Assembly (NCBI GenBank): GCA_017534705.1
Contig: JAFXVU010000062.1
Coordinates: 1 to 47,036, forward strand
Origin: Bacteroidaceae bacterium
GTDB lineage: Bacteria; Bacteroidota; Bacteroidia; Bacteroidales; Bacteroidaceae
DNA: 47,036 bases
Reading direction: 5' to 3'
Position numbers and translations under genes: made by a program. The notes under the pieces were generated by a model. The model did not search any database and was not told the DNA's origin. It worked only from the letters and a program-made list of their open reading frames with translations. Below, piece by piece: positions 14,939 through 43,052 of the stretch (position 1 is the stretch's first letter; each line of letters opens with the position of its first letter).

Positions 14939-14990
14939 CTGGGAACCTAGGATTTCTAGGATTTCCTAGATTTTCCTAGGATTTCCTAGA
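14939..14990 (-). repeat. Array of 9-10 bp CTAGGAAATC-type repeats at the thrC stop codon
   Basis: CTAG occurs at 14947, 14956, 14966, 14976 and 14986, at steps of 9, 10, 10 and 10 bp, with a degenerate copy (CTGG) at 14939. On the minus strand the unit reads CTAGGAAATC. The thrC TAG stop (14966-14968) is one of these CTAGs, so the last residues of ThrC (LLGNPRKI) are encoded by the array. Confidence 0.8.
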
Positions 14991-40550: not shown

Positions 40551-41225
40551 ATGAAAAAGTACTTTGCTGAAATGGTGGGTACGTTCGTGCTCACATTCTT
40601 GGGATGCGGTACAGCTGTGAGTCTGGCTTGCGGCAGTGATACTGCATCTGTTGTCGGTACAGCCATTGCTTTTGGTTTGTCAGTTGTGGCTATGGCCTAC
40701 ACTATTGGTGGTGTCTCTGGTTGCCACATCAACCCTGCCATCACTCTTGGTGTTCTTTGCATCGGTCGTATGACCACTAAGGATGCCGTTGGCTACTGGA
40801 TTGGTCAGTTCATTGGTGGTATTCTTGCTGCTGCTTGCCTCGCCGCTATCGTAGGTATGGCACCTGAACTTGCTGAAGGCACTAAGACTGGAGCCAACGC
40901 ATGCCCGAATGGCAATATTGCTCTTGGTCTTGTGGTTGAGATTGTGCTCACCGCTTTGTTTGTGCTTGTTGTACTCGGTGCTACCGCTAAGACAAATGGT
41001 GCCACCAACAATTTCGCAGGTTTGGCTATCGGTCTTAGCCTTATCCTTATCCACCTCGTAGGCATCCATTATACTGGCACAAGCGTGAATCCAGCCCGTT
41101 CGTTCGGCCCCGCTCTCTTCGAGGGTGGTGACGCTCTGTCTCAAGTATGGGTATTCATCGTTGGCCCATGCATTGGTGGTCTTTTGGCTGCTCTGATTTG
41201 GAAGGGCATCGACACGAAGGAATAA
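40551..41225 (+). CDS. Aquaporin, MIP family (AqpZ-like)
   Basis: A 224-residue channel with six membrane segments and two half-helices carrying NPA motifs: N61-P62-A63 (CHINPAITLG) and N180-P181-A182 (TSVNPARSFGPAL). The Arg after the second NPA (R183) and the His two helices earlier (H168 or H173 region) fit a water-selective filter, as in AqpZ, rather than a glycerol facilitator. It sits in the inner membrane and equalises water flow. It has its own promoter and terminator. Water selectivity is inferred. Confidence 0.92.
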   Translation: MKKYFAEMVGTFVLTFLGCGTAVSLACGSDTASVVGTAIAFGLSVVAMAYTIGGVSGCHINPAITLGVLCIGRMTTKDAVGYWIGQFIGGILAAACLAAIVGMAPELAEGTKTGANACPNGNIALGLVVEIVLTALFVLVVLGATAKTNGATNNFAGLAIGLSLILIHLVGIHYTGTSVNPARSFGPALFEGGDALSQVWVFIVGPCIGGLLAALIWKGIDTKE

Positions 41226-41246
41226 GAGATATTCCCCTCTATCATA

Positions 41247-41279
41247 AAGGCGCTTGCAAAAACCTTGCAAGCGCCTTTT
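41247..41279 (+). terminator. Intrinsic terminator after the aquaporin gene
   Basis: AAGGCGCTTGCAA (41247-41259) pairs perfectly with TTGCAAGCGCCTT (41265-41277), with the loop AAACC, then TT and a further GGTTTTT. A GC-rich 13-bp stem. Confidence 0.9.
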
Positions 41280-41284
41280 GGTTT

Positions 41285-41338
41285 TTCTGAATACTCGGAG
41301 TACTCGGGCAATTCAGACTATTCCGAAACCTCAGGTTC
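41285..41338 (-). repeat. Six-unit array of degenerate 9-bp repeats at the end of the hypothetical gene
   Basis: The motif YTCnGR recurs at 41285, 41294, 41303, 41312, 41321 and 41330, exactly 9 bp apart. The TAG stop of the neighbouring gene (41318-41320) lies inside. In the gene's frame, the units read as tripeptides of the type x-S-E or x-P-E on both sides of the stop. Confidence 0.85.
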
Positions 41339-41842
41339 TTTGGATGGTGCTGTGCTGCAGGCATCCTTAATGGCTATGACAACATTTTGAGCCCAGTTGG
41401 CATCGTTGCCTGTATGTATGCGGACAAGTGGTTGGTTCTTGTCTTTTGTTGCGATGAGAATTTGGTAGTCGGCTGGAAGATAGGGAATCATGGCATTGTT
41501 GAAGGTCATATCTACAATGTCGGCCTTGGGTATTTCTCTTTGGTCGTAAACCAGCTTATCGTGATAGACCAGTATAGCACCTTGTGGTTCTTCTGCATGG
41601 GTGGGGTCGGTGACGATGATGTCATCGGGTTGTCCATACTTTGCAATAAGGCTGTCGATTGTCGGAATCTCCTCTGGTATAGGTTCTTTCCTGTTTTTCA
41701 TCTCACTCCACCAGATGATGGATGCGATAACAAGAACGAAAAGACTGAAAGCTAACATAGTGGCTTGGCCTGTGATGAGCCAAATGGTGATTCCGCCAAT
41801 GGCGAAGAGTCCCAAAATGATGTAGTTGCTTGCTTTTTTCAT
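41318..41842 (-). CDS. Hypothetical two-helix membrane protein
   Basis: The 174-residue protein has two membrane segments (about 6-23 and 28-45) followed by a soluble domain of about 120 residues that starts with a proline-rich linker (KEPIPEEIPTID) and contains VYHDKLVYDQREIPKADIVDMTFNN, suggesting a PH-like or bacterial PH-domain beta fold. I do not recognise the family. The C-terminus (PSKEPEVSE) is encoded within a 9-bp repeat array, and a related array lies upstream of its start. It is 97 bp from dprA on the same strand. Confidence 0.75.
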   Translation of the reverse strand: MKKASNYIILGLFAIGGITIWLITGQATMLAFSLFVLVIASIIWWSEMKNRKEPIPEEIPTIDSLIAKYGQPDDIIVTDPTHAEEPQGAILVYHDKLVYDQREIPKADIVDMTFNNAMIPYLPADYQILIATKDKNQPLVRIHTGNDANWAQNVVIAIKDACSTAPSKEPEVSE

Positions 41843-41885
41843 AATAATGAGTTTTGGGAGGGGATGTTTCTGGCTTTTTAAGAGT

Positions 41886-41912
41886 GTTCCGAGTTTTCAG
41901 AATGTTCAGATT
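41886..41912 (-). repeat. Short 9-bp repeat array downstream of dprA
   Basis: Three units at 41886, 41895 and 41904 (plus strand GTTCCGAGT, TTTCAGAAT, GTTCAGATT) with 9-bp spacing. The core (TCnGAA on the minus strand) is the same as in the array at 41285-41338, on the other side of the hypothetical gene. It starts 28 bp after the dprA stop. Confidence 0.7.
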
Positions 41913-41939: not shown

Positions 41940-43052
41940 TCAGGATAGTTTGTAGCGGTTGCCGCCAAGAACCTTCACTACTCCTTTGAATTCCAGTTCC
42001 AGCAACGATGACATCAATTTGTCGTAAGACAAACCTGTAGCCACCACCAAACTGTTGACCATTACATCGTCCTTGTCTTTCATGTAGTTCACAATGGTCT
42101 GTTCTTCCTCCGTGAGGTCGAGGAAGAGCTCCATTTGGCGGTGTTGGTTACTGGTCTTGGGGTTGGTCCATTGCAAGAGGTCGAGCAAGTCATCGGCACT
42201 GGTGATGAGCGATGCCATGCTCTTACGTATCAACTTGTGGCATCCAGCACTGTAAGGATTGTCCACCTTTCCAGGGAAAGCGGCTACCGTACGGTTGTAA
42301 GAGAAAGCAATGTCGGCCGTAATCAAGGCACCGCCTTTCTCGGCGCTTTCCACCACGATAGTGGCGTCGCTCATACCTGCTACGATGCGGTTGCGACGCA
42401 CGAAATTGCCTTTGGAGATGAGGCAATGGCTCATGTATTCAGTCAGCAATCCACCTTGGCGCACCATCTGAGAGGCTGTGTGCCGGTGAAGGGTGGGGTA
42501 GATGGTGTCGAGTCCATGGGCAAGCACACCCACAGTGTTCATGTTGTTGAGGAGGGCGGTTCGGTGTGCCGCGATATCCACTCCGTAGGCCAGACCGCTG
42601 ACAATCAAAGTGTCAGGGTATATTTCCGAGATGTCGTGGATGAGACGTTCGCAGAGCGACCGCCCGTATTCCGTGCAGTTGCGGGTTCCTACGATGCTGA
42701 TGACCTTAGCTGTGTTGAGGTCGCTGTTGCCCAAGTAATAGACAATCAGTGGTGCATCCTCGCATTCTGCCAGACGCAGAGGGTAGCCTTCTTCGCCTAT
42801 CACCAAGGGTTTGATGTGGTTTTTCTCAATGAAACTTAGTTCTTCCTCTGCTCTGGCAAGGGGTTGGGACACATTGCCCAGAATCTCTCGGATACGAGGG
42901 TTGGCATCGGGAATGATGTCAAGGATGTCGTTGCGATGCTCGAAGATGGCTGTTGCCGACCCCACACGCTTGTAGAGCTGGCAGGCGTTGTTGAGGCCAA
43001 GTCCAGACAGACCGCTGAGGGTCATGACGTTGATGAGCTCGCTGGTGTCCAT
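41940..43052 (-). CDS. dprA: DNA-processing protein DprA
   Basis: DprA loads RecA onto incoming single-stranded DNA during natural transformation. The 370-residue protein has an N-terminal helix-hairpin-helix/SAM-like segment (about 1-70, LSGLSGLGLNNACQLYKRVG), a central Rossmann domain with ISIVGTRNCTEYGRSLCERL (about 118-137), SGLAYGVDIAAHRTALL and GALITADIAFSYNRTVAAFPG, and a C-terminal winged-helix-like segment. The presence of dprA alone does not prove competence; many non-competent bacteria keep it. It ends 28 bp before a repeat array. Confidence 0.95.
   Translation of the reverse strand: MDTSELINVMTLSGLSGLGLNNACQLYKRVGSATAIFEHRNDILDIIPDANPRIREILGNVSQPLARAEEELSFIEKNHIKPLVIGEEGYPLRLAECEDAPLIVYYLGNSDLNTAKVISIVGTRNCTEYGRSLCERLIHDISEIYPDTLIVSGLAYGVDIAAHRTALLNNMNTVGVLAHGLDTIYPTLHRHTASQMVRQGGLLTEYMSHCLISKGNFVRRNRIVAGMSDATIVVESAEKGGALITADIAFSYNRTVAAFPGKVDNPYSAGCHKLIRKSMASLITSADDLLDLLQWTNPKTSNQHRQMELFLDLTEEEQTIVNYMKDKDDVMVNSLVVATGLSYDKLMSSLLELEFKGVVKVLGGNRYKLS

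Follow-up and report, generated by a model that had tools for sequence, protein, structure and literature searches.

The window, that is, the whole stretch of 47,036 nucleotides that was analyzed, carries a short tandem array across the stop codon of a minus-strand gene for a hypothetical protein, next to a convergently oriented aquaporin gene. The genes are simple ORF calls made without a trained gene finder. The features at this locus are as follows.

40551-41225, plus strand: aquaporin (MIP) gene, whose 3' end faces that of the hypothetical gene (Pfam PF00230, 4.8e-54)
41246-41279, no strand assigned: terminator-like hairpin with a T-run, in the spacer that separates the aquaporin gene from the convergent hypothetical gene; seen in the sequence and adjoining the focal array
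41285-41338, no strand assigned: focal array of six 9-bp YTCNGR units (sequence, pattern search and profile score)
41285, plus strand: unit TTCTGAATA
41294, plus strand: unit CTCGGAGTA
41303, plus strand: unit CTCGGGCAA
41312, plus strand: unit TTCAGACTA
41321, plus strand: unit TTCCGAAAC
41330, plus strand: unit CTCAGGTTC
41318-41320, minus strand: TAG stop of the hypothetical gene, within the fourth unit (ORF list; the SE-TAG ending is also found in the congeners G002 and G003)
41318-41842, minus strand: hypothetical membrane-protein-like gene of 174 aa, with the C-terminus EPEVSE encoded by the last two units; no Pfam match
41878-41911, no strand assigned: second TTCNGA array, between the dprA-like and hypothetical genes and upstream of the latter (pattern search; profile score 31)
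41940-43052, minus strand: dprA-like gene, upstream of the hypothetical gene (Pfam PF02481, 1.7e-69)

As described in the first-pass annotation, six YTCNGR units follow one another at a spacing of exactly 9 bp and span the TAG of the hypothetical gene. Inspection of the sequence also bore out that two of the units form the C-terminus of the protein and that the array, translated from the minus strand in the frame of the gene, reads EPE VSE stop-SE LPE YSE YSE. In a profile search, the array was scored at 47 as a 7-unit array at 41276-41338. It is not listed by Tandem Repeats Finder, because its units have only five of the nine positions in common (the core YTC-N-GR). Exact three-unit matches in the window were confined to the focal array (four, overlapping) and to positions 41887-41910; with up to two mismatches there were 15 matches as compared with 3.2 +/- 1.7 expected, a number that none of 100 shuffles reached. 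No Rfam 15 covariance model gave a hit at gathering score in the window, and a search for tRNAs returned nothing. The first-pass annotation was silent on the similar array upstream of the hypothetical gene (41878-41911). Elsewhere in the window, at 14946-14989, 4.5 copies of CCTAGGATTT form a period-10 array with a palindromic core and a spacer, which resembles the 9-bp arrays.

The focal array is a member of a dispersed, mainly non-coding family of arrays. The first-pass annotation had suggested searching the whole genome for the same 9-bp phase, and such arrays were found. G000, the genome of the gut-type bacterium to which the window belongs, has 274 contigs and 3.33 Mb; the three-unit pattern matched it 74 times as compared with 10 for the reversed pattern, and four units with up to two mismatches had 224 as compared with 22 for the reversed control, counts that include overlapping matches and palindromic units on both strands. 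The samples used were 398 kb of G000 (window included), 800 kb of G106, which is the richest relative found, and smaller pieces of other genomes. In samples of about 400 kb, the short-range distances between TTCNGA motifs in the non-coding DNA of G106 were only 9, 18, 27 and 36 bp, with 48 pairs at 9 bp and zero at the other distances from 5 to 17 bp; the distances in G000 likewise fell on 9, 18, 27 and 36 bp, with 15 pairs at 9 bp. When 323 units were combined into a profile, the consensus was TTCNG(A/g)(A/g)TA, which has a free centre base and is self-complementary. This self-complementarity explains why matches are found on the two strands with an offset of one base; arrays of this type can be written as (TTCNGAATA)n. 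The small number of units, their low identity and their omission by Tandem Repeats Finder might suggest a chance pattern or an isolated local duplication, which the first-pass annotation would have accepted had relatives lacked length variation and the genome lacked similar arrays. Length variation and similar arrays were both found, and the genome-wide excess and the strict 9-bp phase refute this reading, to which we assign a negligible probability.

Among the 201 genomes of the bacterial family, 38 had a strict three-unit match and few were rich: G106 (34), G000 (20), G147 (17), G102 (12) and G180 (9), counting overlapping matches on both strands. The distribution across species is patchy, and array-rich genomes sit beside congeners with zero matches. 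The arrays occupy the interval from a stop codon to the following gene, often directly past the stop, and most of the gene pairs concerned are tandem or convergent. For G106 and G000 taken together, an array was present in 10 of the 87 convergent, 23 of the 396 tandem and 3 of the 93 divergent spacers (convergent versus divergent, p = 0.04). This position is compatible either with tolerance at gene ends or with a role at the 3' end.

The family is not the only one of its kind. A sequence-blind scan of spacers revealed strong period-7 and period-9 peaks in several genomes, and the other 9-bp families include TCTAGANNN, CTATAGNNN, TCCGGANNN and TAACTTCGN. In equivalent positions between genes there are arrays of TCTAGANNN, CTATAGNNN, TCCGGANNN and the 7-bp TTAAGAR, and these families come and go from one congener to the next. 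Matches to TCTAGANNN per strand numbered 45 in G000, 126 in G001 and 0 in both G002 and G003, and those to TTAAGAR 145 in G001, 101 in G002, 92 in G003, 23 in G000 and 0 in G106. In G000, TCTAGANNN arrays were observed in the spacers L107:6474-6554, L117:4732-4793 and L106:7424-7494. Palindromes of six bases were contained in 22 of 59 distinct 9-bp units, as compared with 10.3 expected and a maximum of 19 in 500 shuffles; in the same kind of comparison they were not over-represented in the 7-bp units.

Orthologous places in G002 and/or G003 were available for eleven further array sites of G000. At L112, L117, L119, L108 and L116 the array is common to the orthologous spacers, with substitutions and small length differences, among them an apparent 9-bp difference between G000 and G002 at L117. 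The array is absent from G002 at L110 and L121, and G003 has alternative 9-bp arrays, ACTAGTNNN at L115 and L121 and a TCCGGANNN-like one at L110. Thus, orthologous spacers gain, lose and exchange arrays among congeners.

Three orthologs of the hypothetical gene, with identities ranging over 86, 71 and 59%, were found in congeners: G001 (an uncultured Bacteroides sp., locus L014), G002 (uncultured Bacteroidales RUG11857, locus L013) and G003. In two of them, G002 and G003, the gene is five codons shorter than the focal gene and ends with SE-TAG-TTCAAAAAGC, so that a single unit, TCTGAATAG, is followed by the hairpin shared with the aquaporin gene, and the array is lacking. The equivalent of the hairpin at 41246-41279 is thus present in both genomes without the array. 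By manual count, the distance from the focal gene to the stop of the aquaporin gene exceeds that of the ortholog by about 28 bp. The alignment of orthologs that the first-pass annotation had called for yielded different unit numbers among congeners. At the second array (41878-41911), the spacer of G002 is about 70 bp shorter and has no array, and a short TTAGGCN array precedes the hypothetical gene in G003. In G001, 7-bp TTAAGAR/TTTAGRC arrays lie on either side of the gene (L014:4879-4925 and L014:5491-5560), and the first of them starts from the stop codon that ends the dprA-like gene.

Given SE-TAG and a single TCTGAATAG without an array in two congeners, the TAG would most simply be ancestral and predate the array, and the Tyr-like TAT and TAC codons past it would most simply be non-coding copies of the repeat. 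This contradicts one of the two options in the first-pass annotation, namely that a change from Tyr to stop had cut off a tail of tripeptide repeats. Such a coding tail (SE-x) would agree with the frame of the units and has a parallel in the acidic 9-bp repeat at L104:1759-1855, which is in frame, forms the C-terminal tail of a gyrase-A-like protein (named from its sequence, without a family search) and is coding in G000, G002 and G003. However, the orthologs in G002 and G003 stop at SE-TAG and have no tail, and the family is mainly non-coding, which makes a lost tail very improbable at the focal gene. An open frame through the array in the orthologs was ruled out, as G002 and G003 end at SE-TAG without the array. 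The direction of change is better read in reverse: the stop-bearing TCTGAATAG may have been duplicated, and copies past the stop would be free to drift to TTG, TAC or TAT, with the caveat that the register is ambiguous. A MAFFT alignment sets the old TAG opposite the focal TAT, which would put the old stop into a unit further downstream and make the current TAG part of a newer copy. The alignment register within a tandem repeat is ambiguous, and an ancestor with a long coding tail is not required under either register. The array thus appears to be repeat DNA between genes rather than a cut-off protein tail.

Could the arrays then be functional elements? The unit could be a protein-binding dyad or, at the RNA level, a 3' hairpin serving stability or insulation, with the core under selection. 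In the profile the core is conserved and the centre base is nearly uniform in distribution, the arrays are close to gene 3' ends, and a number of arrays in G106 form long hairpins in which the centre bases are complementary, although any self-complementary unit folds in this manner. Furthermore, in arrays common to G000 and G002, changes were found at 36 of 212 core positions as compared with 73 of 212 centre and spacer positions (17% versus 34%, nominal p = 6e-5). A twofold contrast is, however, expected without selection because arrays were chosen by their intact cores in G000, and what was observed is about what this ascertainment alone would give. Permutation of the centre bases barely altered the folding energy, with mean z-scores of -0.38 +/- 0.21 for sense, -0.26 +/- 0.19 for antisense and -0.26 +/- 0.21 for convergent arrays; the effect was weak and overall not significant, and selection for RNA pairing thus has left little sign. 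The closest congeners also lack an array at the focal gene, and equivalent spacers hold different cores. We regard a functional role as possible but rather unlikely. For the view in the first-pass annotation that a DNA-level array had grown into the gene, the genome-wide, mainly non-coding family and the congener spacers with no array or another one speak in its favor; any action of the array at the DNA or RNA level would be putative.

Alternatively, the arrays might be mobile or copied elements that spread among spacers in the manner of REP or MITE sequences. REP elements are intergenic and hairpin-forming, scarce in divergent promoters, and are built on a defined palindrome that starts from a GTAG head and is associated with a RAYT transposase. 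The arrays are similarly intergenic, hairpin-forming and scarce between divergent genes, but REP elements are single palindromes and do not form a tandem array. Spreading would account for the same core at unrelated loci, for several G106 arrays that are preceded by TTGANAG repeats of 7 bp and have CTCCGAAAA at their end, and for an array in G147 that is repeated together with its flank. Against this, comparison of the focal site with the array-free orthologs showed no terminal repeats or target duplications, the arrays are variable in length and there are several different cores; we find such mobility improbable. The succession of a 7-bp and then a 9-bp array was seen in only part of the G106 arrays. 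Long composite elements of (CGAAGTTAA)n ending in CGACGATA are present in many copies in G106, with inverse (ATAACTTCR)n arrays nearby (L091:6828-7482, L146:578-1076). At L164:7264-7420 in G147, three tandem copies spaced at 56 bp each comprise a TTCNGA array and the flanking sequence TTTTTAGGGCGCTA.

Given the weak fold effect of the centre bases and a substitution contrast that ascertainment explains, we therefore favor local duplication or template switching and place a functional role second. We think it probable that these are hairpin-prone short arrays that were born by local tandem duplication and are tolerated at gene ends, with no need for a regulatory role. The unit that holds the stop of the gene (TCTGAATAG) would have existed beforehand and then been tandemly duplicated in the G000 lineage, so that the copy nearest the gene still terminates it and the copies past the stop would be non-coding. 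Growth on the gene side would have added about five codons; the one-copy orthologs are observed directly, and the order of events is what we infer. The unit is palindromic and prone to form hairpins, and slippage or template switching in it was likely the engine; arrays may persist where they are least harmful. Neither a coding role past the TAG nor a specific regulatory role would be necessary. Local duplication alone admittedly does not explain the same core at unrelated loci in many and distant genera, for which recurrent seeds, dispersal or selection is needed, and the growth on the gene side is 15 bp, which is no multiple of 9. A more speculative idea, which we consider unlikely, is an active and undescribed process in the Bacteroidales that builds and replaces species-specific arrays of 9-mers (and 7-mers) with palindromic cores in spacers, the core (TTCNGAA, TCTAGA, CTATAG, TCCGGA or ACTAGT) being chosen by a cellular factor that reads or copies it.

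Among known systems, the short tandemly repeated repetitive (STRR) sequences of filamentous cyanobacteria are the closest kind; these lie between genes, form hairpins, have no known function and usually have a 7-bp unit (PMC2670836). Short head-to-tail units at a fixed period and many dispersed intergenic copies in the genome are found in both, whereas the arrays studied here have a 9-bp unit with a palindromic core and free bases, and a host in the Bacteroidales. The 7-bp arrays TTAAGAR and TTGANAG of the same genomes are a nearer match to STRR than the 9-bp arrays. In the mycobacterial MPTR, a conserved core of 10 bp is likewise parted by variable spacer bases, 5 bp in length (PMC3914561), but these occur in the coding 3' ends of PPE genes, whereas the present arrays are mainly in spacers, 9 bp long and palindromic. 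The nearest described bacteroidete repeat is BrickBuilt, a MITE-minisatellite of Porphyromonas gingivalis with a 23-nt unit, leader, tail and terminal inverted repeats (PMC4596501). It resembles our arrays as an intergenic tandem repeat in the Bacteroidales with length variation and stem-loops, but no such unit, leader or tail was seen here, and comparison with the orthologs that lack the array revealed neither terminal inverted repeats nor a target-site duplication at the focal site. In the literature on intergenic repeats of Bacteroidetes and Prevotella, in which few subscription journals were covered, we found no description of these arrays and nothing matching beyond BrickBuilt; a literature search with the array sequence strings gave no match.

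Bacteria have been described as poor overall in short tandem repeats, with a high density in the Bacteroidota, including within genes (PMC12699852). Our findings indicate that the spacers of several species are rich in imperfect arrays with 7- and 9-bp units, which vary between species of one genus and offer a natural test of how such repeats arise. Units this imperfect can escape repeat finders, as the focal array did. They also call for caution, since an "in-frame" tripeptide repeat that continues after a stop can be nothing but spacer DNA. Finally, a TTCNGA array of about 20 units was observed where contigs C146 and C132 end (L065:993-1187, L063:1-100), which have sequence in common there, so the assembly probably broke at this array.
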